Source: Paramacrobiotus metropolitanus
Lineage: Eukaryota > Tardigrada > Eutardigrada > Parachela > Macrobiotidae
Length of the DNA stretch: 64,000 bases
Direction: 5' to 3'
Assembly (NCBI RefSeq): GCF_019649055.1
Contig: NW_026570364.1
Coordinates: 1 to 64,000 of the forward strand
Position numbers and translations under genes: made by a program. Positions within the stretch are counted from its first letter, which is position 1, and the number at the start of each line of letters is the position of its first letter. Below, one piece after another: positions 153 to 36,445 of this stretch. Below the pieces are notes generated by a model. It was given only the letters and a program-made list of their open reading frames with translations, had not been told where the DNA came from and searched no databases.

Positions 153-310
153 AGCTTAATAAGTAGTTAAGATAAGGGTGGGATCCGGTTTATCAGGCGA
201 AGGTTTTCACAGGTGATGGAACTAAGTTTCGGATACTCAGTAAGGACAAAGGCGTAAAAGCACAGGGTTAAGGGGCTGCAAAAGCTTAAAAGTTGCTAGG
301 CGGGTTCCGG

Positions 311-400
311 CCAATCAGAAACGTAAGGTTTTTTCTGGCCAATCAGAAGGTTTTGGAGGCAGGAGCGTCACGGAATCACGGTTCTGCTTTAATATATAGG
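311..400 (+). promoter_or_regulatory. CCAAT-CCAAT-TATA promoter-like block
   Basis: The sequence CCAATCAGAA occurs twice (311-320 and 339-348), followed by a TATA-like AATATATAGG at 391-400. The order and spacing resemble a metazoan polymerase II core promoter. No convincing gene starts just downstream, since the open frame at 495-866 begins only at a TTG. The block may serve an unrecognised non-coding transcript or be part of a repeat. Confidence 0.35.
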
Positions 401-1974
401 ATAGCAACTGCGGCGTCACAAAATATGCCGCTAAGCGGTAATAAGAACCTTGTGGTATAACATAATTATGGCATTTTTGTGAATTACTGCGCATTTGCGC
501 GTGAAGTCTGCAAATTACAGCAAATCAACGGAAAATGCCAAAGCAGAAATCGTAACTGCGTTTAATCAACAAAACTGCAGTGCATCTGTAAATGAAGTGG
601 GCGACTACGGTCGCTTGATAAAAACCGCGTATCGTTATCGCCCAACATTGACGGAAATAATTAATAGAATCAGAAGTAACGATTGCGTTTCGGTCAGATA
701 CAGCGCTGGTACTTGTCGGTTTTTGGAGAGCTTATTACGTAGTATGTATATTGAGAATCATACGATTATGGCAGGGTCATCGCGAGCTTGGAGGGTAGGG
801 TGGATGTACGGCCTTGCGCCCGGCGCCCCAGTTCAAATATGGCCTAAAAGGAATGCAAAACCGTAGAATCATGCCTTTTTTGAGCCAGTGACTTCTACAC
901 TTTTTGTTTTTTTCTTATTTTGTGGTCGCGTCATTCTTCCGCTTTCACCCTCTAGGACGGTGCCCCAACGCCCTCTCGCGACAGCCCCGGATTTTGGTAT
1001 ATAATATGATTGCTCATTCAGTTTACCTAACGAAGTTGCATGGCGTTAAATGGCATATTTTTTTAAAGTGTGCGAAAACAGAAATCTTACACTTTTACCA
1101 TACAGCTGCGAAGTGACGCTTTTACATATTTTGTACTCAGTTTTCCATTCTCAGTGCCCGGCAAAAATAAATTTCAAGATGCTGTTAATATCTTAAGTGG
1201 AGCAAACTGTTTCCCTTAATTTGGATTAATTAAATGCGCAAATTACGCAAACAGTATTTAAAAGTTACAAAACCTGCGCGCGCTGTCATAAGCTATCCGA
1301 AAACAAACTCCACGAAAACAGTCAGTTTTGCTTATAAGTTGTAATTCAAGGACAGATCTGGAGAAAGCAGATCCACGGCATTTTTAAAGCAGCGTATTAG
1401 TCTGACAATTATTAAAGGCAATGCGGCTGCGGTTTTAGGAACTTTACCGGGCAAGAATAAACTCGTTGATAATACTGATTTTGGTTGTTTTTTTAATTTT
1501 TGAATGGGTAATGCCGGCCGTAGTGATTTGACTCATGACTATTATGTCGCGACGTAAAAGTAATAAAGAACAATACTTTTTAGTTGTAATTGCTCTTCAT
1601 ATGAGGTGTCCATGCATTTCGGATGCCGGAAAACCAGAAACGAAATTAATATACGTAGTACAGAGACAACATTTATATACAGAGGTAAATAACCGATTCA
1701 CGTGCGGACATAAAATGGAAATGTCTTATCGCAAAATGTATACCGATTACCGATACGTAAGCTTGTAAGTTGTACCTATGAGGCAATGACATCATTGTAG
1801 CATTGAAAATCACTGTGTCATTGTGTGATAATCACTTAAGAAAAACACTGTGTCATCGTCGATAAGCTAACCATTTTCAATACTTTATAAGTCTTCTTGC
1901 GAGTTACCGTACCGGCCATAGGCAAAGCCAAATTCTTCTCGTACTAATTACATTTAATTGGTACTACCCAGGTT
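401..1974. other. Long stretch without a recognisable gene
   Basis: No open frame here has convincing composition or splice context. Bases 408-464 are similar, in inverted orientation, to 3395-3460, so dispersed repeats bracket the first tetraspan gene. The last 300 bases resemble the region upstream of the second tetraspan gene and probably hold its promoter. Confidence 0.5.
1807..1866 (+). promoter_or_regulatory. Duplicated TGTCAT...GATAA element upstream of tetraspan gene 1
   Basis: Two imperfect copies of CACTGTGTCATYGT followed by GATAA/GATAAGC lie about 110-165 bases before the start codon. The same paired element occurs upstream of the paralogous gene (3883-3939). GATAAG is the classic GATA-factor core. 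Conservation of the pair between paralogues suggests a shared enhancer, although it could simply have been carried along in the tandem duplication. Confidence 0.4.
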
Positions 1975-3103
1975 ATGACGTACAGATATCGTCTTAACCG
2001 TCCTTATAATCAGACACAGACTAATGTTCCAATAACTTCGTTTTACTGCCATGCAGGACAGCTTGCGAAATTTAAACTGGGTATGGGGCTATTATTTGCC
2101 ATCTTTACGATAATCCCCCCAGGTACGTATTTTCATTAATTTACAAGTTAGTAAGTATGTATAAAATGAGAAGTATATTAGATCAAATTAATAAATTATT
2201 GACCATACCGCCGCGTGCGTTGGCGATAAAATCAAAATACTTCTTGCAAAGATTGTGGAAAAAATGTCATGTAATGCGTAATGACGCACAGCATGGACAG
2301 CTAAGTTACGAGTATGAAACCTGATAATGTACCGGATTTTTTTCAATCCGGTACATTATCAGGTTTCAGTGAAGGTAGACAATGCTAACCACATAATTCC
2401 GCTGTGTTTTGATTAATTTTCAATAATATGTATATTTATAGCTGTTTCCGGGGGTAAAGGGATTATCGAAGCAGTGCCTGGAATTATTACAGCAGGTTGG
2501 GTCATCTTCTACAGTGCAGTTGCACTAGTTACTTGGGCACTGTCAAAATCGCGCTCTTCCGAACAAAATCGTGCGAATTGTAACTCCACGATTAATCCAC
2601 AATTCAGTGTACCTGCTACACCACCAGGATTATTCTTCTACAAGGTGTTAACGGTCTTCATGGGGATCAGTATCTTGCTGTCCGTGGCTAGCCTCACAAA
2701 CGCTATCGTCGTGCTGGTCACTGCCGCAGAAAGCGTGGTCGAAGTGTCAGGTTTAATGGGAATCCTTACCGGGGCATTTTTCCTTCTTTTGGAACCGTTG
2801 TCTTTAATCTCCGCCATTTATGATATTAAACACGCCGGGCGACCAAGAACGCCACCAACGTTTGCCATGTCACTGGAGCCCCGACATCGCACAAACAGCT
2901 TACTTCACGAGGCAGCCACGACTGCAAATACGTCATCATCGCATTACCCACAAATACCTCTTACCAATATTATATATTTGCCAAACGTACCACAACATGT
3001 GTATCTAGACAACTTGGGTAGCAGACCAGATGTTCCCTCTTCGGTTAATTATGACAGTCGGTGCGACGTTCTACCAGCTTATTCAGATGTTGTCAAAGTC
3101 TGA
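1975..3103 (+). CDS. Four-pass membrane protein with PPxY-like tail, copy 1
   Basis: Two exons, 1975-2122 and 2442-3103, join in phase 1 across a GTACGT...TATAG intron and give 269 residues. The start is the ATG that opens an exon closely matching exon 1 of the neighbouring paralogue. Four hydrophobic segments are visible: one ending exon 1, one opening exon 2, and two around residues 140-200. A hydrophilic Pro/Ser-rich cytoplasmic-type tail follows, ending in LPAYSDVVKV, a PPxY-like motif of the sort that binds WW domains. The function is unknown. The topology resembles small tetraspan families, but I cannot place it in a named family. It forms a tandem pair with 4027-5152. Confidence 0.8.
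2316..2367. repeat. Perfect 23-bp stem hairpin in the intron
   Basis: Bases 2316-2338 are the exact reverse complement of 2345-2367, separated by a six-base T-rich loop. The hairpin lies inside the single intron of the first tetraspan gene, and I find no counterpart in the paralogue's intron. It is shorter than a usual microRNA precursor and could be a foldback remnant of a small inverted-repeat transposon. Confidence 0.85.
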
Positions 3104-4026
3104 AGCTTTTTTAGTATTTGCTCAATGACGAATCCCGTGCTAATGTAAATTATTGTTCGTATTGGCATGCAAATGTGCAGTGGTTCTAAACTGATGCAAA
3201 CTGTGTTAACTAACAAGACGTTAACTGAGGTTAACTGAGATCTCTGGTACTCCATTAAGCACGACCTTTCACGCTGTTTTAGAAATCAAAATCGACGCTG
3301 ATCCCTGGCGATCTTATTTACGTTGATTTCTTTAAACACTCAAGCTAGAGTTGTTATCAGACGTTTGCGCGCGTTGTAATTAATTTAAATGGCGTATGTT
3401 ATACCACGAGGGTCTTAATCTTCTTATTTACGCTTAGCGGCATTTTTTGTCCTACCGCAGTTTTTGATAGGCATATTTAGTTTATATCCCATAATTATAA
3501 CTGGACATTCACACTACATAGGACACTCGAATTTGATTTTCGCCATGCCCACTGGACCATTACCGATGAAAAAAATTTCTAAGTTTTCCCTTGGCCTACT
3601 CTAGTACTCCGACTCTAAACTCGCATGCAGAAGTACATGACCCATCTGTACCTAATTAATTAATTCATGAGGCGCGCGTGCGTACTGCAGTCAGCTATCC
3701 AACAACCAACTGGTTCGGATACCGGAAAACAAGGAATAAAAATTAATCCAGTACCACAATAACATCAAGCTGTAATAAATTTATTTACCTTTACTTCTAA
3801 ATACCGATTCACGTGCGTGCAGTACAATGGAGATTACTTATCGCGGTACGAGTAACTGGTGTGACATCACTCTAGTATTCCAAATCACTGTGTCATTGTT
3901 GATAAGCACTGAAAAAAACCGTGTCATTGTTGATAAGCCAACCGATTTGGATAAAAGCGAGCCACCGACCGTAGACAAAGTCAAATTTTACTAGCGGCCT
4001 GTAACTGGTGCTAAAGCAATCAGAGA
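3104..4026. other. Intergenic region between the tetraspan genes
   Basis: No gene is seen. Bases 3395-3460 match 408-464 in inverted orientation. From about 3795 the sequence parallels 1690-1974 (the ACCGATTCACGTGCG stretch, then the paired GATAA elements), so the tandem duplication copied roughly 250 bases of upstream DNA along with the gene. Confidence 0.55.
3883..3939 (+). promoter_or_regulatory. Paired TGTCATTGTTGATAAGC element upstream of tetraspan gene 2
   Basis: TGTCATTGTTGATAAGC occurs twice in tandem about 90-140 bases before the start codon at 4027. The two copies here are nearly identical to each other, more so than the pair upstream of gene 1. Each carries a GATAAG core. They are candidate transcription-factor sites. 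Confidence 0.45.
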
Positions 4027-21052: not shown

Positions 21053-21404
21053 GACGTTAGCGATGGCTATTTTGTTTTTGTGTTTTAACCAGAGTCTGTG
21101 CATTGTGGATGCAGATTGTGCGGGAAAAGTCGGACAAGCGTTTTCTCATTCTGGACATCGTCCAGATGTTACCGAAAAAGCCATACGTTCATGAATCTTC
21201 CATTGAGTCCGATTACCGGAAATACGTACTTATGACCACGCTAGATCGCGTTATCACGAAGGACATTACGACGCTGATACTGATGGACAACTCCCAGGCG
21301 ATTACCGACATAGCGGACGAATACTTCGTCAACAGACGTTTTGCATACTGTCATTATCCATCTGTCATCGGTCTCAGACGAGAAATGGAAGCGATCCAAG
21401 CTGT

Positions 21405-21410
21405 GTTAAC
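21405..21410 (+). repeat. Target-site duplication GTTAAC, left copy
   Basis: GTTAAC directly precedes the first base of the Polinton terminal repeat and is repeated exactly after its last base (35664-35669). Six bases is the characteristic Polinton/Maverick duplication length. The site is palindromic. Confidence 0.92.
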
Positions 21411-21547
21411 AGTAGTACGTATGTCCATCCTACACGTACTTTGCGCATGTGCATTTGCATTTGCACGGATGCGCAAGTGTATATGAGCATTTGCACACAT
21501 GCGCATATGTATAAGTGCATTTGCAATTGCACACATGCGCACAAGTA
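21411..21547 (+). repeat. Polinton left terminal inverted repeat
   Basis: 137 bases, reverse complement of 35527-35663 except for one base. Internally it is built of repeated GCATTTGCA and ACATGCGCA words, which give alternating short repeats along the arm. Homology continues more loosely inward to about 21735. Confidence 0.95.
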
Positions 21548-21654
21548 TACGATACACCTGTGCATGTGCATCTGCACGGATATATGCATAACTGGTAATA
21601 ATTTTGTAAATTTGATTTGTATGCTGACCACAACACAGTATGTCGTGATTGAAT

Positions 21655-21735
21655 GTACCATGTACCATGGTACATGGCCTAGGTACATGGTACAGGTACC
21701 GTTACCATGGTAACGCGTACCTGGTGCCAAGTACC
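21655..21735. repeat. Left subterminal GTACC palindrome cluster
   Basis: A run of overlapping palindromes (ACCATGTACCATGGTACAT, GGTTACCATGGTAACG-type) ends in GTACCTGGTGCCA at 21717-21729. A related cluster lies inverted at 35344-35419, and a third sits inside the element at 29791-29817. These are candidate recognition sites for element-encoded proteins. Confidence 0.6.
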
Positions 21736-22567
21736 AGTCGCATAATAACAGATATGCATTGGCCTATGAAAATCTAGTTGGTAGTTACAAACATGTGTGC
21801 ATTCTATCTGAAAGTTACGGAAGAAAACTGTTTTCGGCCATTGTATACTATCCAATCTTTTTTTGAACCATTGCAACTGCTACTGATTTGTTTACCGGGT
21901 GTTGATATGATATTGTTGTACTATTCCATGGATTAACCAGGATTGATAGCCAATTACTTTCAAGCTCTGACGGAATAACGGGTAAGGGGAAAGAAGTAAA
22001 TGTTTGTTTGGTTTACTTTCGTTTCACCCTGAATTCCGATCTTGCGTCAGATTTCGTTCTGTTTGTGTGGATATTTAATTGCATTATTTAAAGCTTTATT
22101 GCATTTGATTTACCAGCTTTACTTAATATATGTCGTCATAAACAACTCCGTTTATCATGGCATCATTTTGTAAATAAAAAACCACAATATCAAACAATGT
22201 TTCGTCGGTACATGTGACAAAAGAAATTGCAAACACTACAATTCCAGTTTCTGGATACAAAACGTTTTAATGTGTGAAAACCAGGCTCTGTAAAGTTTGG
22301 ATTCCAAAACGCCCAGGGTGCCATTGCTATCAAAGGCCAGCAGTGCTTCCCACTATTTGCAAGTATTTAAGCACCGTAGATCCACCCTTTTTCGTCGAAG
22401 AACTCCCGAAATACGGAATGGTCGTTATTGCGGACATCGGGTACCCTCCACATGGTATTCCGGGATCTGCGGTCTGAACAAAGGACTTAGGGTTACATTC
22501 TTTATCGGGCATCTCGTTTATCTTTATTGCCTCACCTTGGTCGAAGAGACGGAACGCAGGATGTGAG
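21736..22567. other. Polinton left region without a recognised gene
   Basis: No credible gene. Open frames at 22274-22566 begin at non-ATG codons and overlap one another. The region may hold the promoter of the left gene block. Confidence 0.45.
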
Positions 22568-22997: not shown

Positions 22998-23684
22998 ATG
23001 TATAGTACTGTTAAAGAATATCCGCGCCTCAGTGCGCCCTTTGGGATGTGTGTTTGTGGACCGACCATGCCGGGTAAATCAGAGTTTGTTTTCTCATTAA
23101 TTGAGCAACGGAACCGCATGATTGATAAACCACCAACAAAAATTATCTATTGTTACGGTGCTTGGCAAAGTGGATTCGAAAAGCTACTATCTGCAAACCC
23201 TTTTATAGAATTTATTAAAGGATTGGACGAATTCTTTGCCTGTTCCGAGTCACTAGATGAAAAGGTGCCTACATTAGTTGTTATTGACGACTTGGCGACT
23301 GATCTCTGCAAAGACGTGCGGTGTGCCAATCTTTTTACACGCGGAATCCATCACAAAAATGTTTCAGTTATCGTGCTTCTACAAAATCTATTTAAGCAAG
23401 GCAAGGTCATGCGGGACATCACCCTCAATCTACAGTATCTAGTCCTTTTCAAAAACGTGAGAGATGTAAATCAAATAGCATTATTGGCCAGACAGACCGG
23501 ACTGAAGCAACTGGTTACTGCTTATAGTAAGGTCACTGCACTACCGTACCAACCTTTAATTTTGGACTTGCGACCAACGTGCCCAGAATACTTACGTATT
23601 CGCTCCCATATCTTTCCCAACGAGCACATGAGGATTTATTTGGATCGAAATTCGTCACAACTGCCAAAATGTCGGAACGCGTAA
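22998..23684 (+). CDS. Polinton genome-packaging ATPase (FtsK/HerA, A32-like)
   Basis: The 228-residue frame starts at ATG 22998. A Walker A motif (CGPTMPGKSEF, about residues 19-29) and a Walker B motif (PTLVVIDDL, about 89-97) are intact, and further helicase-like segments follow. The family pumps double-stranded DNA into icosahedral capsids. The gene is unbroken. Its stop at 23682-23684 overlaps the start of the next gene (23669), as is common in compact virus-like elements. Confidence 0.9.
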   Translation: MYSTVKEYPRLSAPFGMCVCGPTMPGKSEFVFSLIEQRNRMIDKPPTKIIYCYGAWQSGFEKLLSANPFIEFIKGLDEFFACSESLDEKVPTLVVIDDLATDLCKDVRCANLFTRGIHHKNVSVIVLLQNLFKQGKVMRDITLNLQYLVLFKNVRDVNQIALLARQTGLKQLVTAYSKVTALPYQPLILDLRPTCPEYLRIRSHIFPNEHMRIYLDRNSSQLPKCRNA

Positions 23685-24727: not shown

Positions 24728-25784
24728 ATGGAGAAACTGATGAAAAAATATCTGAACCCTCGCGATCCCGGAAGTCTTGGCGGCGTCGACAGGTTCCGAA
24801 AAAGTTTAAAGACCAGAGCCGACAAACGGAAAGCACAGGCGATCTTGCAGGAGATCGATGCCTACACTGTCAACAAAGAATCACGCAAACGCTTCCCGCG
24901 CAACCGCATAATAACAACTAACCTCCGCCAACAGTATCAAGCGGATCTGGCCGATCTAGCCAAATATTGGAAGGAAAACAATGGATACAAATATTTGCTG
25001 TTTGTTATTGATTGTTTCTCCAAGAAACTCAGTCAGTATTCATCCTCTGAAAACCAAAACGGGTGCTGATACCAAGGAAGCGCTTACCAATGCGTCCAAT
25101 GATTTGGGAGAGCCGGAAAAACTGCAATATGATAAAGGGACTGAGATGTTGAATAGAACGGTGGCCAAGTACTTGAAAGACAAACAAATTCAGTTCTTCA
25201 CTTCCGAGAACGAAGACATCAAGTGTTCCATGGCGGAGCGCGTTATTCGAACCATCAAAACGCGGATATTTCGATTGTTTCGGTCCCGCTTATCGACGCG
25301 CTATATTGACAAATTGCAAGACCTGGTGTACTCGTACAACCATTCCAAACACCGTGCGCATGGTATGCGACCCAGTGATGTACGGCAAGACAATTCGTTG
25401 GCAGTGTACAATGCTTTGTACAAGCACAAAGACGTCAAGAAGCCACGGTACAAAGTCGGTGATGCCGTGCGGATTGCGGTGCATAAAACAAAGGTGGAAA
25501 AAGGGTATACTTACCGTTTCAAAGAAGAAATCTTCTACATCCATCAGGTGATCCCGCATCGTATTCCGGTCTATCGTTTGAAGGATTACCAAGATGAAGT
25601 TATTAAAGGAACGTTTTATGAGCATGAACTGTCACCAGTCTCGAATCCACAGCAGAAGGAACACGCAATTGATTTTATTGTTAAGCGGCGCGGAAAGAAA
25701 GCACTAGTCCGTTGGTTAGGTTACGGACCCGAACACGATTCTTGGGAACCACTATCATGTTTGAAGGAGCGCCTTTCTACATAA
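24728..25784 (+). pseudogene. Polinton integrase (DDE, retrovirus-type) with chromodomain, frameshifted
   Basis: Starting at ATG 24728, the frame carries the first catalytic Asp (in YQADLADLAKYW) and the VIDCFSK segment. It then shifts frame between about 25025 and 25050. The second frame carries the second Asp (QYDKGTE), the catalytic Glu (MAERVIRTIKTRIFR) and a C-terminal chromodomain-like end (ALVRWLGYGPEHDSWEP). The family inserts the element and makes the 6-bp target duplications. The break separates the first catalytic residue from the other two, so this copy should be inactive unless the shift is a sequencing error. The C-terminus overlaps the penton start. Confidence 0.9.
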
Positions 25785-27109: not shown

Positions 27110-28447
27110 ATGGCAATGCTCATGATGGAACATTCCGAACCGGCCATGCAGCTGGAAAATCAGCTGTTTGCCTTGCCGGCTACATTAACCGACCGCTGGC
27201 GTACCGAACACGAGAAACTGAACCCTACAACTACTTTGACCGACAATGGATCCGCTGGTGACATTAATTTCTTTATACCACCTAGTACGGCTGGTCTGCT
27301 CAGTTTGGCAGATATGATATTGGAGTTGGAAGTGGGCATCAAAGTGCGTAAAACTACCGGTGACTGGGAATTGGTAACCGCGGATGATGGGGTGGCACCG
27401 GTCAATAATTTCTTGCACTCGCTCTTCTCATCCTGTCATGTAACGGTAGCCAATCGACTGATCTCGGATGCCGCCACGTTCTATCCGTACCGAGCATACT
27501 TTGAGTCATTGCTATCGCATAGCAAAGAGGCTCAAAGTAGCCAGTTGACTTCGGCTGCATTCTATTTGGACACGCCCGCCAAACATAACGATGAGACGTC
27601 TAATCAAGGAGAAAAGAGCCGTAAGGCTTTATTTCAAACCGGACAATATGTTCAACTTTCTGGAAGACTATTTTCGGACTTGTTTGACCAAAGCAAACCA
27701 CTGTGCACAGGGGTTCCTGTGAACATCCGTCTGGTAGTCAGCCGCCCTGAATTTGCCCTGCGTGTGTGGGATAAAGATGCCACGAAAACGTTTAAGCCCT
27801 TCATTCGCAATGCTCGGTTGTCTATCCGACGCTACATTCCTCACCGGATTTTCTGACAGCTGTTGCTGGTGAATTGTTAAAGAAAACCGTCAAATATCAT
27901 GTTGAGCGGATAGTTATGCGCGTGTCGGACATTCCGCAAAAGACGCAAAGCACCGTGGTCAGCAATCTACAGATTGGGCAAATACCCAAAGTCGTGTTCG
28001 TTGGATTTGTCGATAGCGAAGATTTTCACGGATCCATCAAAAAGAATCCGTTTAACTTTCAACATTTCAAACATTACACAACTTAGTGTGGAAGTGGATG
28101 GTCAGAGCTTCCCTAGCAAACCCTATATAAGTGATTTTGAACACAACTTATCCTTGGAGTGCTACGATGGTTTGCTCAATACTCTGGGATACCGACCGAG
28201 TTTGCAAGGCGGACTACCGTTCAACCGCACCGAATATAATCAAGGATATACCGTATTTGGTTTTGACCTTACACCAGGACATACTGGCCGCGGACCTTTG
28301 ACCTTGATAAAACAAGGAAATCTGAGTGTATCAGTTTCCTTTGCTAAACCATTGACGACAACAATCATGATGGTGTGCATGCTGATTTATGACAGCATCA
28401 TCGAAATTAATCAACATCGCCAGTTGATTGCGGATTTTTCAACATGA
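27110..28447 (+). pseudogene. Major capsid (hexon-like double jelly-roll) protein, two frameshifts
   Basis: The frame from ATG 27110 contains typical Polinton capsid landmarks (FFIPPSTAGLLSLADMILEL, then SLFSSCHVTVANRLI and YPYRAYFESLLSHS). Coding character shifts frame near 27840-27850 and again near 28035-28060 (close to an AAAAA run). It ends with IMMVCMLIYDSIIEINQHR, a C-terminal segment common in this family. The predicted full length of about 445 residues suits a double jelly-roll capsid protein. This copy cannot encode it without the two corrections. Confidence 0.88.
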
Positions 28448-28899
28448 ACACGGAGCAAATTCACCACTGTCTGCAGGGAAATCCTGTTACCACCCAGCTG
28501 TTCCGCGGTGTGTTTGCCAGTGACCAAGTTCCGCTATGTTTAGCCCCGTACCCTGGAGCATGTGTAGTTAACACGGACCCCTCTGACCAAAATGGCGCAC
28601 ACTGGATTGCTTTGCTACAAACCCAAGCGGGAATCTTGGAAGTGTTTGATTCGTATGGTAAAGCGTTGGAAACGTATTCTCAGCACTTCTCTATGCTTGC
28701 TCAGAATAATACTATTGTCTGTCAAGACGAACAGTTTCAGTCCGAATATAGTACCGTGTGTGGTGAATATTGCTTATTTTTTGTTTTGAGACGCGCTAGC
28801 GGCGAATCTTGCACTAATATTGTACATTTATTTACCGATAATCGAACAAGCAACGACAAGATGGTGTGTCAGTATGTACTATGTAAATTCTTTTTTTGA
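28444..28899 (+). CDS. Adenain-like (Ulp1-fold) capsid-maturation cysteine protease
   Basis: Intact 151-residue frame from ATG 28444, overlapping the capsid stop. Catalytic residues in the expected order are His53 (NGAHWIALL), Asp69 (LEVFDSYGK), Gln99 (FQSEY) for the oxyanion hole, and Cys106 (STVCGEYCLFF). The family cleaves virion precursor proteins in adenoviruses and Polintons. It is the last gene of the plus-strand virion block. Confidence 0.85.
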   Translation: MNTEQIHHCLQGNPVTTQLFRGVFASDQVPLCLAPYPGACVVNTDPSDQNGAHWIALLQTQAGILEVFDSYGKALETYSQHFSMLAQNNTIVCQDEQFQSEYSTVCGEYCLFFVLRRASGESCTNIVHLFTDNRTSNDKMVCQYVLCKFFF

Positions 28900-29056: not shown

Positions 29057-29624
29057 TTAAACTTGGTTCAGAGAGCAGTTTACTTGCATACGGATTTGAT
29101 TTTCATGTGTATCCAAATACTTCACCACATCCAAACTTAAGGCTTGCTTAAAGCTCAGTTCTTCAAAACCAAACAAAATGCCATGCACAAAACGAGCATC
29201 CAACAGACGTTGCACAGCATCTTTCCATTCCGTATCCGTTAACACGTCCCGGAAATCAGGGCATCTTTCATGAACTCGTTTCACTAGCATCAATAATAGC
29301 GTCGCACAACTTCTCATGACAAAGACCTTTTTTGTCAGCATCCACATCCTCAACGATTTCGTCCACACTGACAATATGTTTGAAGAGAGTGAAATCCCTT
29401 ATGAGTTCTTTCAACGCTTCGTAGCACTTCTCGTTCAATGAAATCCCGTTTCTCGTGGGCATCAAATCACCTTCCTGAGACCGCTGATAGCGGCGAAAGC
29501 TGGCCACGTTAGGACGGCTCCAGCTGAAGTACACCCCTCGGTCCAGTAAGAATAAAGGAGGTAAATTTCCATTGGAATGATCCAGATCGGCTTTTCCCGT
29601 CAGCAGTAACGATACCAAGCGCAT
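29057..29624 (-). pseudogene. Unrecognised Polinton gene, frameshifted
   Basis: A minus-strand frame from ATG 29624 (MRLVSLLLTGKADLDHSNGN) runs to about 29330. Coding character then continues in another frame to 29057, and the switch sits at a run of six T on the plus strand. The frame is also open a short way upstream of that ATG, so the start is uncertain. The second part includes ERCPDFRDVLTDTEWKDAV. I cannot name the family. It is transcribed divergently from the TBP-like gene. Confidence 0.45.
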
Positions 29625-29790
29625 GAATCCTCTTTTGGTAAGGCTTATCGTTTTCGCCCACGTCTGCTTCCATTCGAGTTTCGGACATGTTTTAGAGATG
29701 GTTCCATTTTGTCAGAACTGAACTCAAATGAAGTGTATGTTGAGCGCACGCAAGTTGTAAAACAAATGTTTGAAGGTCAACTGTGGTACA

Positions 29791-29817
29791 TGGTGCCAGG
29801 TAAAGTACCTGGCACCA
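29791..29817. repeat. Internal GTACC-type hairpin between divergent Polinton genes
   Basis: TGGTGCCAGGTA and TACCTGGCACCA form a perfect 12-bp stem around a three-base loop. The words match the subterminal clusters at both ends of the element. It lies in the roughly 260-bp interval between the minus-strand gene start (29624) and the most likely plus-strand start (29883). Confidence 0.7.
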
Positions 29818-29882
29818 GGTACCATAAACCAACGCTGTTGCCAAGTGATAAACGAGTTGTGTATTTCAGTCTAGTCTTGACC

Positions 29883-30833
29883 ATGGCTCTGCCATGTGTT
29901 TTAGATGCTGATTGGTTTATAATTGAAAAGGTACCATATATCAAACAGCTGGCCTTCTCGTGCCCAGAAAAACATGACAGTGGGCAGTACACCTTCAGCT
30001 TACCACGATCAGCCGGTAAACACGCTCGCGAGTTGCAGAAACAGGCCAAGCATTCCCATGGACTTCTCTGGAGCACCTTTGGTGATTATCGACACAATCA
30101 AGTGACGGTTGCCTTGGAAGACATGTTTAACCGTATTGGCCGTCCTAGTAAGCTAACTTTCTATGCCAAGGGTTTGGAGAAGTGCCGTTTACTGGAGCGT
30201 TATGTGCCCCAAGTGGTCAATCTTGAGGAACTAGGTTGCCCCGTCTATCACCGTCTAACAGATGTGCCCCAAACAACACTGCGCAAAGCTATTCGGTTCG
30301 GTTTGTGGTTCTACTGCCATGCCAAAATCATGAATGTCGTTGCCGTTGCGGATTTAAACACTATCCTCAATCTGAAGGAGATTGAAAAGAAAGTACCGAT
30401 GGCGCAGTATATTCCCCGCAAATTTTCCGGCTTACTCCTTCGTATTCTCTCTCCCTACAAAGCACATTGCCAACTATATTCCAATGGAAAAATCACGGTC
30501 AATGGAGCTCGTTCGGAATCTGCTGCCAAAGAATTGGTCGACAAGTTTACCAGCATTCTTCAATCAATTGGGTACCGTTGTATCGTTTCAGGATTTCGAA
30601 TTGTTAATATTGTTGTCACTCATGATTTTGGTGCGCGTATACATATTGAGAAATTCAGCCAACATTACAAGTTGGAATATACTCCTGAACTGTTTAGCGG
30701 TTTACGTATAAAATTGCCTGGGTGTACTGCTGTGCTCTTTCCATCGGGAAAGTGCAACTTTTTGGGATTGAAAGAAATGCATGACATACAAATATCTGTA
30801 GCCTTTGTCGGTCGAATGATTGCAAGGCAATAA
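29883..30833 (+). CDS. Polinton protein with TATA-binding-protein-like C-terminal domain
   Basis: From ATG 29883 the frame encodes 316 residues. It is open upstream to 29709, but that part covers the hairpin repeat and lacks a good ATG. The N-terminal half has a KGLEKCRLLERYV...EELGCP signature that I recall from proteins of other mobile elements, function unknown. From about 30330 to the stop there are two tandem halves resembling TBP. The first has YIPRKFSGLLLRI and LYSNGKITVNGARSE; the second has YTPELFSGLRIKL and VLFPSGKCNFLG. Of the four DNA-kinking Phe positions of TBP, three look like Phe and one is Tyr. The likely role is transcription or origin recognition of the element. The gene is unbroken. 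Confidence 0.75.
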   Translation: MALPCVLDADWFIIEKVPYIKQLAFSCPEKHDSGQYTFSLPRSAGKHARELQKQAKHSHGLLWSTFGDYRHNQVTVALEDMFNRIGRPSKLTFYAKGLEKCRLLERYVPQVVNLEELGCPVYHRLTDVPQTTLRKAIRFGLWFYCHAKIMNVVAVADLNTILNLKEIEKKVPMAQYIPRKFSGLLLRILSPYKAHCQLYSNGKITVNGARSESAAKELVDKFTSILQSIGYRCIVSGFRIVNIVVTHDFGARIHIEKFSQHYKLEYTPELFSGLRIKLPGCTAVLFPSGKCNFLGLKEMHDIQISVAFVGRMIARQ

Positions 30834-30835
30834 AT

Positions 30836-33800
30836 TTATTCAGTTGTGTATCCGTATGGAACAGTATTCCAGTCTTGCGTAATGCGCCGCTTATCATACG
30901 TCACTTGCAAACGCTTAGTAATATCGCTATTGGACAGAACAAGTTTTGACTTGACACGCTTAATAACGTCATCGTAATGCACATCAATACAACCAGAAGT
31001 GTGTAGAATATTCATCATGGACTCCATGTTAATTTTCTCTTTAATCCGATTATTAATGGTGAATCCCTTGATTTTCACTACTGAATTTCCATCGTTGGTT
31101 GTGTAAGCATAAGTTTTGGCGCCCAAGCTGACAAACTGCGTAATATGTTGTCCAGGTTTCAGTTCATTGGTTAAATCGCTCAGAAAACGGCCAGTAGGAG
31201 GGTCAGGCCATCCCGGTTTTGACACAAAGAAAATAGAATCTACAAAATAAATAACTCCAACAACCTGCCTTTTAAAATGCAGTTCTGTAAAATACCTGTA
31301 TCAAAATACAAGAGGCGTTCTTTAACCATATCCATAAACTGGTATAGATGCAGTCGTGCCCAGCAGGTGGTGAACCTAATGTAAAAATTGCGTTAAATTC
31401 TGCATGCAGAATAAAGCTTTTACAAAACTTACGCGGCCAAAACGACATTGGTGTTCGGATTCTGCTCGATGAAACCATCTTCTTTGGTGTACGTAATTTG
31501 CACAACATTGTCATCAAAGAGATCCCACGAGTGCACATGGTGCTTGCCCGACAATAACATTTCATAAAATGTTTTGGGGTCATGGATATACATGGTATTC
31601 AGTTTGTTATCCTGCATTCCTAGTCGGCCCCAAAAACTGTTTAGGCATAAACTTGGCTAAAGCACGTAGGCCGGGATTTTCTTTGATTTTACTGTAATCT
31701 AACTTGACTCCTTCTCGTTCTTCAAAATCAGAAATGTAATTTCGCTTTTCAGTTTCTGTAGTGATACCCGCTGGCCATCCGCTGGCTTCAGTTTTGATCT
31801 TCAAAAAGCGGTCAATGTACTCTTTGAAAAGATGATCATCGAATGTTTCGTAATGCCACACTTCGTATATCCTGCTGACAATGTATCCCCGAGCCATAGC
31901 AGCATGTAACTCTGGCGTACACCACGTTCCTGTTATTTCCCTTTCCGAATCCGAGTGGTCACATTTCTTCGTGTTCTGTTCTTTAACACATGTTGCACAT
32001 AACGGAAAGGTCAGCTTGCCGTTACAACGGTATGGTAAAATGGGTAACCACAAATCTCCCGGTGGTAGTACTGTGCAATAGACCAAACCGAAATATTCAC
32101 GAATGTCTTGAAAGTTGTTAGTTAAAATAACAGGATGTCCAAGCGGATACCGGCGGTTTTTGTTGACAAAAGGATATTCACTGTTGACATCGAAATACTT
32201 GATCTTTTCATCGGATGTTATCGTATGCAACAGCCGCACGGCATTTGTTCGCCCACCATAAAATGCGCTCCGAGGATTCAGCGGTTCAGCCATCTTTATG
32301 TTACTGATGAACTTGCGCATTTCCGAATCGATGCGAACGTTAGCGTCATAATCATGTTCCCAAACAGTGGTTACCGGGTGACCCAGAGAGCGCAGGTACT
32401 GTTCGCGGTCCATCGTCTCTTTGTAAATATCACGCATTGGAAGGTTTCGAAACGGATGCAAAGTTTCAGGGTCCATACAGGTTGGGCAGCCATGATACCA
32501 ACAGCCATAAAATTCATAGATGTGACCAGTATCTTCTTGGTATCCATCCACGTAGTAAGGACCGACTTTCTGCTCCTTACCAGAAACTACAGACTGGATG
32601 GCACAATTTTCTTCATTTTCCATCCACGAAATCCATTTCATGGCCTTCACGGACTGTAAGCGATTGCGAGCAAACCGCTGTTGCGGCACCAGTCCAATTT
32701 GATTTGGTTTCAGAATGAAGGAGCGCCAATACAAATTGCATAATCCAGCGATAGTCAGAGCCGACGTAAACGGTCACAGACCATTGCTAATTTCCATAAA
32801 CAAAGCACGAAACTGTTGGCAACAGGTGCGCAGGACGGTAACGTCATTTTCGCAGTAAGTAACAAATTCTTTGCGAAAATCAAAAAGTCCGTTTTTGGCG
32901 CAGATATCTGCATCGTACCATTCTTTGAAAGAAGTTTGTGTCTTCTTGTCCATTGTCCGGAAGCCGTATTCATCCATGCTAGGATACGGCACAACATGGT
33001 CCCAATTTTCAGGACGATTAAATTTATGTGGAAAGGCCCCTTTGCTGATGTCCGGTAATCCAAATGTCGCTGGCCATTTGGCTAGGCTTTGTGGGTTGTA
33101 ATTAATGCTGTCGCGAAAGTGAATATCATAACCCGGCACATCCAGTTGCAAAATCTTTCCACCATTTATGATCACTTTGGGTGTCACACCGTTTTTTAAA
33201 AGCCATTGTAGAACAAAATATCCATCAAACGCTTTGAAATTATGCGCGCTGATATAATACCCTCTGTGGTTTTCGCTGATCAAAAATTCGCACAGTTTGT
33301 CGGTTATGCACTTCCCTAATGGTTCGTCAGTAGGAGGAAAAGTCCATTGAGTTCCCGCGTCATCTTGCACGACGGCTAAATTTGGAACCAACTGACCATT
33401 ATCCTGGACGTATGTCTCGAAATCAAAATAAAGAAACTGGGCATTTTCATTCCTTTGTCGCTCTTCGGGGGTTACCTTGTGCGGTTTCATAAAACACTGG
33501 TGCGTTTCCGGCAGGACATGGACATTGCAATTTTTGCAGTACATTTCTCCGCATTGGTGGTCATTTGATCCTTTTCGGTTGCGAAGCGAGACTATACAGC
33601 GGCATTCCCGGCAAACTTTGATTGTGCTGCACAATGTTTTTCCACGACTCTTTTTAGGTACTGCTTTGTGGCGATCAAAACATCCTTGCCCAAAAAATAT
33701 CCGATTGCAATCATTGCAGTGTAGAGGATTTGTTGTATCCCGTTCGCAATTCGTTCATAGACATTGATGGCAGATGTTGCTGCAGCGATGAGTCCGCCGA

Positions 33801-35175
33801 TCAGAATAACCTTTACCGCAGTGATAGCACCAATATGATCTTTTAAAAAAAGCTGCGAGCGATAACAGTAAATCATAATGGTGACCATAAAGAAGCAGTA
33901 TGATGTGACGTTCCTGGAATTTTCCGCTGTATACAATGCTGCTCCCTTGGTCTAAACTGACGACGATGATTTGATACCCAGGCAAAACAGCTTCAAATAG
34001 GGGGATATCTATGAGGTTATACGCTTTCTCGGTCAGCTTGGCTCGTCTTATTAATTTTTTAGCTTCGTTCGTTAGCAGTTTTTTACCCTCACGAAGTCGG
34101 CGAATCAGTTTCTTATCCTTGTCAGCATACGCTTTGCCAAACACTAAGGCTCTGGCCATGCAGATATTATCAGTATTTTTTATCTGCACTATAGACTTCA
34201 TCTTTTTAAGTTTCTGGTATAACAGTCGCGGAACTAACCGCCGACACCCCCCAATTGGCAATTGCGTGTATTGCACAGATATTTCAAAAGTTTCGTCGAG
34301 TATAAAGTCCTCGTTTGAATGCAGCACCTTTTCAACTTCATCCATCCATCGCTTTACATCAAGTTGTGAACGCTGAATTGGTGGTGTCCAAATGGGGTGG
34401 TCCAATGCATGGGAATCAATACGCAACCGAACAAGCTCGCTATCCCCAATATCTCGTAAAACAGACTGAAGGATGTGCTCCAAAATAAAGGTTAGCACGA
34501 CTGGAATTTCCACAAAAGGGACATGATCAAGCTGGGAAACCTACAACGGTTCCACAAGTGATATGAGAAATCTGGCTACAATAATCGCATTATTATTAAT
34601 CAAATATGTCAACAGGGTCTTAAAAATAATTGTTTGATTTAAAAGATTTTATAATTATTTTGAGTCATTGTTATTAAATACAAGTTACCCAGCCTGAATA
34701 TATATTGAGCTACCTACAATCTTCACAACAAAGTCGCCGCCTAAAGACTGTGCGATATGAATCTAAAGTTTTTGTTATGGAACTTGGTTAAAGTATTTGT
34801 GCAACTTTTATAATATTGATGACAAAACCAGTAATACTAATAATGATAAAATAATAATCATATGGTTTTTTTAGAAAGACTTACTTTCACGCTAAAACAC
34901 TTGAAATGGAGCTTGTATTTCCGGGAAAACTTTTCGCCGTTGTTTTCGATTGTGACGTGTTCATCGATGTCGAAAGGGTGGTTTTGTGTTTCAATGTCTG
35001 GGTCCGCCGGTTTCTGCCCCCCTGTTTGCTCGGTGCTGCAATCGTTGTAGTCCAATGCGTGTGAGGTGTTACCACCCAATAAATTAACCGCAGACAATGC
35101 ATCATCACACACCCAGTCATCCAAACTTGCTAAAAGTGCACAATCATCTAGGTCTTGTTGGGATAACTGGTCCAT
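30836..35175 (-). pseudogene. Polinton family-B DNA polymerase, with three introns and several lesions
   Basis: Reading leftward, exon 1 is 35175-34885 (ATG at 35175), exon 2 is 34540-31433, exon 3 is 31375-31296 and exon 4 is 31239-30836. The three GT-AG introns (344, 57 and 56 bases) preserve phase. A Cys/His-rich region (CYHCGKGYSDRRTHRC, HCNDCNRIF, CRECRCIV) precedes the exonuclease motifs: FDFET, AHNFKAFDGY and YCENDV. Polymerase motif A is FDVNSEYP, motif B is the damaged area at 31620-31650, and motif C DTDS is split by intron 3. Lesions are in-frame TGA codons at 33755-33757 and 32774-32776, and an apparent one-base insertion at motif B. The expected length is about 1290 residues. The family copies the element by protein priming. 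Confidence 0.88.
31240..31295 (-). other. Intron inside the polymerase DTDS motif
   Basis: A 56-base interval with donor AG|GTATTT and acceptor TTTTGTAG falls within the third codon of DTDS on the minus strand. Removing it restores both the frame and the catalytic motif. A sister 57-base intron lies at 31376-31432 (GTAAGT...CATTAG), and a larger one at 34541-34884 (GTAAGT...TTGTAG). Confidence 0.75.
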
Positions 35176-35343
35176 TTTGATAGTAAAAGCATCAGGAAGA
35201 AGTGCAACCCCGCACGTTAAACATTACTTTTTGAAATAACGCTGTATAGAAAGACTCCCACAGCGCTCGATAAAAGTAAGACAGACTCACAGCGAACTAG
35301 GCTTTCATAATCAAAAAGGTTATTGCACGGTTGTAAGTATAAC

Positions 35344-35419
35344 CGGTACTTGGCACCAGGTACGGTACATGGTACCAGGTACGCGTTACCATGGAAACAG
35401 TACCTGCACCATGTACCAC
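35344..35419. repeat. Right subterminal GTACC palindrome cluster
   Basis: Overlapping palindromes contain TGGCACCAGGTAC (35351-35363), the reverse complement of the left motif at 21717-21729, plus GGTACATGGTACCAGG and GTTACCATGG. It mirrors 21655-21735 with moderate divergence. It lies upstream of the polymerase start and may act in transcription or replication of the right end. Confidence 0.6.
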
Positions 35420-35526
35420 AGTACATAGCACTTTCAGTCGGAGCATACCTTGTTGTGCAATCAGTATACAAATGAAGCTTACAAAATTATTTCGTGCGTG
35501 AAAATACATATGCATCCGCGCGCATT

Positions 35527-35663
35527 TACTTGTGCGCATGTGTGCAATTGCAAATGCACTTATACATATGCGCATGTGTGCAAATGCTCATACACACTTG
35601 CGCATCCGTGCAAATGCAAATGCACATGCGCAAAGTACGTGTAGGATGGACATACGTACTACT
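35527..35663 (-). repeat. Polinton right terminal inverted repeat
   Basis: Reverse complement of 21411-21547 with one mismatch and no gaps. It ends ...CGTACTACT at 35663, directly followed by the right GTTAAC copy. Confidence 0.95.
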
Positions 35664-35669
35664 GTTAAC
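35664..35669 (+). repeat. Target-site duplication GTTAAC, right copy
   Basis: Exact repeat of 21405-21410, abutting the right end of the Polinton. Confidence 0.92.
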
Positions 35670-36445
35670 AGCCAAAGGAATTCGCCTGTCCAAAATCATC
35701 GTAAGGAACGGGTATGATGTTCCTGAAGGAGGATGGGAGTCCTTTCTGGCTGTCACTATCAACGACCATGCCATCGATATCGTCGATAACGAAGACATCA
35801 TGAGCTCGGTGGCCGAAGTGATGGCGGTATGTGACGAGCTGGTGCTTATTAACTACATGGCGTCGCAAGCGATCATTGATACGACATTTATGTTGTTGTT
35901 CTCCTGCAACGGATTTATACCCCGTCCCATGCTGAGAGGCATGCGCTCCGGTCTTACTTTTCTTGATTTGGGTGTGACTATTCCCTTTCTCCGCTTTCGC
36001 CATGAGGAGACAGCTGCTGAACAGCGTCGGCGCTTTCTGGTCGCGGCCAATGACTGCTGTATGACCGTTAGTCAGGATGTTCTACAAAAGGTCACAGAAT
36101 TGTGTGCTCGATGGGTGACGAAGCTGGCCTATCCCGAAGATTGGATTGGCATTCGCAAGTTACTTAAGCTGTGAGCGTTTAAAACTCAAAACTACAACAT
36201 AGTATTAAGAAGTGAAGTTTACAATACGTTATAATTTCTTGTATTTTGTGAAAATTCGGGAAAAACCCGAACGGTGGGCAGAGCGCAGATATTTTTGTTT
36301 AATCAGGTTCAGCAGCTTCGGTCCAAATGATAATCCACAACGATGGGACACGACGGATTTGCGCCAGGTGAACGCTGACAATTTCAGCAGTTTGACCTTC
36401 ACAGCTCTGCACGGGGTCTACAGAGACCGACGACGAACAACCTGA
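35670..36445 (+). pseudogene. F-box gene, 3' part, separated by the Polinton
   Basis: The rest of exon 3 (35670-36170) continues in the same frame as 21410 once the element and one target copy are ignored. It begins AKGIRLSKI. It is spliced in phase 2 via GTGAGC...TAATCAG to exon 4 (36307-36445), which ends with a TGA. With the 5' exons the ancestral gene had four exons and 649 codons before its stop. The C-terminal region is leucine-rich, with no motif I can name. With no promoter or start of its own, this half is unlikely to be expressed correctly. Confidence 0.7.

Follow-up and report, generated by a model that had tools for sequence, protein, structure and literature searches.

A TATA-binding protein gene with altered contact residues in Polintons of the tardigrade Paramacrobiotus metropolitanus

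Introduction

Polintons are usually thought to depend on their host for transcription. The closest relatives of the element described here are the Polintons/Mavericks and the adintoviruses, with which it has PolB, integrase, ATPase, protease and terminal inverted repeats in common. The gene under study encodes a TATA-binding protein (TBP). With cellular TBPs (that of the host and those in the PDB) it shares two PF00352 repeats, the saddle fold, the Phe wedge and the Asn pair, but it is only 25–33% identical to the TBP of the host, has Asn/Leu instead of Thr/Thr and usually a Tyr at the second Phe position. In addition, it is encoded by a mobile element and lacks, in the family studied here, the long N-terminal tail.

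TBP genes have been observed previously outside cellular genomes. According to PMC11464507, Megavirus chilensis encodes a TBP as well as RNA polymerase and TFIIB, and PMC10675990 describes sporadic TBP genes in mirusvirus-like elements. In both groups, the giant viruses (Nucleocytoviricota) and the mirusvirus-like elements, the TBP is likewise virus-encoded, and several structures named TBP or TFIID match the model of the element TBP; however, the best structure match in the viral library is only 20% identical to it. Ten ORFs of our element's region and nine ORFs of the copies L027 and L037 gave no Pfam match above chance to RNA polymerase or TFIIB. A search of the open PMC literature (including PMC11071308, PMC12220804 and PMC8363768), with the subscription literature mostly outside its scope, found no description of a TBP gene in a Polinton. 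The element TBP presents itself as a new, ancient variant among the element- and virus-encoded TBPs. We consider it probable that it serves as an element-specific promoter-recognition and initiation factor that works with a host polymerase; its DNA target, the polymerase and the timing are what we infer.

The Polinton and its genes

The window, that is the whole stretch of 64,000 nucleotides that was analysed, contains a Polinton: genes for PolB, integrase, ATPase and protease are located between 22998 and 34345, and the outer ends of the terminal inverted repeats are 14.3 kb apart. Its features are the following.

21404..21547, + strand: 144-nt left arm of the terminal inverted repeat, with 99% complementarity to 35527-35670
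22998..23684, + strand: packaging ATPase (PF04665, E 1.8e-4, just under the cut-off)
24728..25784, + strand: integrase and chromodomain in two overlapping frames (PF00665, E 6e-4, and PF00385, E 4e-5, in 24981-25784, both under the cut-off)
27110..27856, + strand: probable major capsid protein, N-terminal part (248 aa versus a 445-aa ORF in L027)
28444..28899, + strand: adenovirus-type protease with altered C-terminus (PF00770, E 2e-4; 151 aa versus 170 aa in L027)
29060..29690, - strand: remnant of a divergent PC4-like gene in two pieces that lack the N-terminal part (identities of 96% and 88% with a 279-aa ORF of L027)
29883..30326, + strand: ORF1 without its tail, DEDD-exonuclease-like (residues 1-148 of the merged ORF)
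30319..30321, + strand: codon at which TBP usually starts, conserved in 19 of the 20 other copies
30324..30327, + strand: run of four As, in which a missing base merges the frames
30330..30833, + strand: TBP gene, beginning at the first in-frame ATG (residue 150 of the merged ORF) and ending with the stop
31607..34345, - strand: PolB, pieces in different frames (PF03175, E 1.5e-22 and 4.2e-20)
35527..35670, - strand: right terminal inverted repeat arm, pairing with the left arm

The major capsid protein, which has no Pfam match in either the window or L027, is presumed to be such from its position. The element is a mosaic: the part from 25.5 to 30.5 kb is about 99% identical to its sibling L027, and the part from 31 to 35 kb has mostly 80–88% identity with the best copies, reaching 94.6% in a single 500-base bin; the switch is near 30.5-31 kb. 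Directly beside the repeat arms of this mosaic element no identical 6-mers were seen by eye. The ORFs flanking it (21109-21486 and 35554-36174) look, again by eye, like one host coding region that was split by the insertion. In L027, four consecutive genes at 307-3511 are spaced by 2-3 nt or overlap by 4 nt in an operon-like manner; the last one is the protease (Pfam), and we take the first three to be virion-type genes.

The TBP domain and its contact residues

The initial annotation had read the C-terminal half of the frame as two tandem TBP repeats with Phe at three and Tyr at the fourth of the intercalating positions. Profile and structure comparison bear this out: residues 148-316 match PF00352 in two stretches with 113 bits (cut-off 22.9), the motifs quoted for the repeats are present, the intercalating residues are F181, Y199, F271 and F286, and the predicted saddle fold superimposes on solved TBPs with an rmsd of 1.4-1.5 A over 167 residues in the best rows. 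The window protein is matched by 35 PDB sequences (best E 6e-20), nearly all of them named TBP or TBP constructs. The TBP models of NCBIfam match below their cut-offs, and PHROGs gave no informative match. The identity of residues 148-316 as TBP is far beyond chance.

The residues of the DNA-binding surface were compared in 18 element-type rows, 12 from the P. metropolitanus genome and six from databases. All rows share the first Phe, the fourth Phe and the second Asn. The third Phe is found in 17 rows and the first Asn in 15, and 15 rows have a Tyr at the second Phe position. The two Thr residues which we take, from solved TBP complexes, to contact the central base pairs in the minor groove are replaced: the first is Asn in all 18 rows, the second Leu in 17 and Met in one. 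The window TBP has Asn and Leu and thus does not carry the canonical TATA-reading Thr pair. Among the 120 database TBPs listed (of 209), 67 have Asn/Leu, 32 Thr/Thr and 21 gaps or other letters at these positions. The exchange of these contact residues points to a DNA target that is not TATA.

On the protein-binding side the picture is mixed. The stirrup Glu, which we assume from solved complexes to contact TFIIB, is retained in 17 of the 18 rows, while the three helix-2 positions that are basic in the host TBP and presumably contact partners there are basic in only six, 11 and one of the rows; partner binding may therefore differ. A protein that retains the Phe wedge and some of the stirrup facing TFIIB but loses other partner residues has the pattern expected of a competitor, and the element TBP might act as a decoy directed at the host, competing for TFIIB or TATA boxes and lowering host transcription. 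We regard this as unlikely, since both base-contacting residues are altered alike across the family, which is a better fit to a different DNA target than to competition for TATA. Recognition of the element's own promoters stays the preferred reading.

The neighbouring genes

The domain upstream of the TBP, ORF1, is predicted to adopt an RNase H-like fold of the DEDD-exonuclease type, and among viral structures it is matched best by a protein of Drosophila-associated adintovirus 2 (E 6.6e-8). In the 18 rows of the ORF1 alignment A3 (nine of 21 copies and all nine database relatives), only D8 and D10 of the acidic columns are strictly invariant, and position 115 is always Asp or Glu. We class ORF1 as a conserved DEDD-exonuclease-like protein and not as an active exonuclease.

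In several Polinton families a PC4-like gene diverges from the ORF1-TBP pair; one genome search gave 142 matches, pieces included. Three examples are:

L027:3606-4445, - strand: PC4-like gene (PF02229, E 4.6e-5, 23.3 bits, under the cut-off)
L037:5377-6279, + strand: PC4-like gene (PF02229, 21.1 bits, under the cut-off)
L043:2520-3233, + strand: PC4-like gene (PF02229, E 1.9e-8, 34.1 bits versus a cut-off of 25)

Membership in PC4/SUB1 is thus found over the cut-off in L043. The PC4 domain is what the divergent gene has in common with PC4/SUB1; its protein is longer (237 aa or more). PC4 proteins also bind single-stranded DNA, so that the PC4-like gene could serve replication. A further neighbour is present in L043 (contig C81), where the element TBP overlaps at its 3' end with a BIR (inhibitor-of-apoptosis) gene at 672-1274 on the - strand (PF00653, E 2e-21).

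Promoters and candidate binding sites

TATAWAWR, with up to one mismatch allowed, was not clearly enriched in the 110 nt that precede seven element genes. Counted over families, boxes were slightly above expectation for ORF1 (5/9 versus 3.8 expected) and PC4 (1/4 versus 0.7), and below expectation for TBP (1/9 versus 1.1), MCP (1/8 versus 3.0), minor (0/8 versus 1.9), protease (1/9 versus 1.8) and PolB (0/9 versus 0.7). These counts thus identify no binding site for the element TBP. Several element genes abut or overlap, so promoters would have to be located in upstream coding sequence. In L048 the TBP and ATPase genes are arranged head to head with overlapping ATGs (1025-1028), leaving no promoter space between them.

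Other repeated sequences were found instead. The window contains clusters of GTACC/GGTAC at 21549-21900, 29640-29883 and 35100-35420, near both ends and upstream of ORF1, with 9, 4 and 8 copies versus 0.4-0.6 expected in stretches that were chosen after the clusters had been seen. In the 400 nt upstream of ORF1, palindromic iterons with family-specific sequence are present (L024/L038/L040, L026/L035 and L023; types GGTAATC..GATTACC, ATAATC..GATTAT and GATAACC..GGTTATC). Iterons and clusters are possibly sites of a regulator of the element. A GGTWA/TWACC motif upstream of ORF1 is strong in three of nine families, weaker in one and absent in the rest. In the three strong families a coding control was also about twofold above expectation, no link to TBP was found, and the motif was rejected.

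The element TBP might also have an architectural role, bending DNA not at promoters but at origins of replication, at the terminal repeats or where packaging begins. Its neighbours, an exonuclease-like protein and a possibly single-stranded DNA-binding PC4-like protein, would fit such a function, as would the location of the GTACC-type clusters near both ends and upstream of ORF1. However, neither the clusters nor the family iterons could be tied to TBP, the clusters are inverted-repeat iterons that differ between families, and inverted-repeat iterons are unlike a TBP site. Terminal recognition, which had been suggested at first, likewise found no supporting evidence in these searches. We therefore judge an architectural role to be rather improbable.

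ORF1 and TBP are separate genes

Positions 29883-30833 on the + strand form an open frame of 316 codons. The initial annotation took it for one undamaged gene of a Polinton, in which the TBP is fused to a domain with the sequence KGLEK...LGCP; the TBP repeats and the Polinton context hold, but the fusion and the intactness do not. At least 128 matches to the 316-aa protein were found in the P. metropolitanus genome (170 Mb, 533 contigs), many of them being separate hits on residues 1-148 and residues 147-316. All 20 other copies that were fetched keep the two parts in different frames, the KGLEK...LGCP domain being a separate conserved gene, ORF1. The spacing from ORF1 to TBP is 13 nt in these 20 copies versus 12 nt in the window, which places TBP in the +1 frame. 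ORF1 has its own stop 19 codons past residue 148, or near that position, in 18 of the 20 copies and an earlier one in L026 and L032. The ATG of TBP is located three codons before residue 149, within the ORF1 tail, in 19 of the 20 (L031 has ATA), so the stand-alone TBP gene of about 175 codons starts in overlap with the ORF1 3' end. We thus rejected a fusion as a feature of the family. The offset is not the same everywhere: in family L043, ORF1 and TBP overlap by 13 nt in the +2 frame, and family L046 has the +1 frame, with the ATG of TBP inside the final codons of ORF1.

The in-frame join itself results from a one-base difference. The A-run at 30324-30327 has four As in the window and five in L021, L022, L025, L027, L032 and L034, with substitutions at this site in the remaining copies; with one A missing, the frames of ORF1 and TBP merge. 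The loss also removes ORF1's own tail of 19 residues, and from the usual TBP start at 30319 the window reads MPKS and then a stop, after four codons. TBP can still begin at the in-frame ATG at 30330.

The missing A is either a mutation or an assembly error, and in neither case is the fusion a feature of the element family. An error may be the reason: the exon of the host's own, presumably essential, TBP (C4:406165-406662, - strand; L041) also shows a one-base frame change in the assembly, at a run of six As, which makes homopolymer errors likely. Other single-base lesions in these copies should be viewed with equal caution. In the NCBI protein 'TATA-box-binding protein-like' of P. metropolitanus, 113 consecutive residues from MPKITNVV are identical to L040 (contig C112), and the same stretch is exact also in L005/L024 (three of 50 loci).

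A real, functional ORF1-TBP protein, encoded directly or made by programmed +1 frameshifting, is strongly disfavoured and in our view very improbable. The 316-codon frame is open in the window, the copy L005/L024 is also open across both genes, and the offset is constant at +1 in the 20 other copies and in family L046. But L005/L024 was opened by a different shift, near ORF1 residue 120, the TBP retains its own ATG in almost all copies, the overlap in L043 is in the +2 frame, and each of the 12 relatives found in databases for the whole 316-aa protein is TBP only. The nine database relatives of ORF1 are single genes as well, found in a length-limited search in which a full fusion could not appear.

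Distribution, lineage and selection

The TBP domain is present as a Polinton gene in many related elements. At least 163 TBP places were found in the genome (merged within 1.5 kb, fragments and the one of the host included), and 123 of those listed have a listed Polinton PolB or ATPase no more than 25 kb away, in a zone that makes up 5.5% of the genome. Conversely, a TBP is located within 25 kb of 80 of the 117 PolB places and 108 of the 149 ATPase places listed. All these counts are minimum values: the 40 TBP places for which no neighbour is listed may still sit in Polintons, and PolB or ATPase places without a listed TBP may still have one. A deeper Polinton lineage (L045:857-1600, L047:677-1744 and L050:393-1364) has a TBP of up to 355 aa with a long, probably disordered C-terminal tail; no ORF1-like ORF was found there within the 1.6-2.2 kb read. 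The TBP alignment A2 comprised 14 of 21 copies and nine of 12 database TBPs; L032 was left out for a stop codon, and L022, L023, L028, L033, L035 and L040 for being broken or identical. Scans of the IMG/VR viral contigs with alignments A2, A3 and A4, from which records of the own genome were possibly excluded, revealed no relative, so that relatives outside this genome come from protein searches, mostly without genomic context.

In a maximum likelihood tree of 49 rows, a branch supported at 100/100 separates the host TBP and 14 cell-type TBPs from 34 element-type TBPs. Of the 120 database TBPs listed (from 209 passing the E-value), 36 were used, labelled before tree building as cell- or element-type by their contact residues and not by known context; three cell-type rows have long branches, and the TBPs of giant viruses are outside this tree. 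This suggests that the element-type TBPs are an ancient lineage distinct from the sampled cell-type TBPs.

The element TBP is under purifying selection. The dN/dS ratio (Nei-Gojobori) is 0.08-0.20 in ten of 12 chosen copy pairs; one very close pair has 0.32, and in one pair it is undefined because dS is saturated. In another six of these TBP pairs dS exceeds 1.4, which makes the ratios rough. For ORF1, nine of 12 pairs could not be used, being saturated, free of changes or read through a frameshift. Several copies are indeed broken, some with split TBP frames. That a host TBP was captured recently or is carried as a decaying, functionless passenger is nevertheless hardly credible, since the 18 element-type rows are only 25–33% identical to the host TBP, the element-type TBPs form a separate lineage in the tree and dN/dS is far below 1; a recent capture is refuted by the low identity and the tree.

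Discussion

With its homology, predicted fold, gene structure, conservation, selection and linkage established, a role of the Polinton TBP in element transcription is plausible. We favour an element-specific initiation factor, since a selected TBP is present in most listed Polintons of this genome and a PC4-like gene adjoins it in several families. Such a TBP would bind and bend the promoter DNA of the element with the usual Phe-wedge saddle, and its base reading would be altered by the exchange of Thr/Thr for Asn/Leu. It might recruit host TFIIB and RNA polymerase II via the partly kept C-terminal stirrup, with the PC4-like protein assisting, and the element genes would be transcribed without host TBP/TFIID.

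A broader proposal is made more tentatively: the Polintons of some animals may carry a basal initiation module of their own, consisting of an ancient Asn/Leu TBP that reads a non-TATA promoter, a PC4-like cofactor and a DEDD-fold partner. If this is true, the module would enable the element to take over host RNA polymerase II by its own promoter code, independently of host TBP/TFIID.

The Asn/Leu signature together with ORF1 provides a marker for such elements in metagenomes. A conserved and selected TBP with two replaced contact residues makes it directly testable whether its promoter differs from that of the host TBP. Furthermore, it adds a second evolutionary line of TBP in the genome of a single animal.
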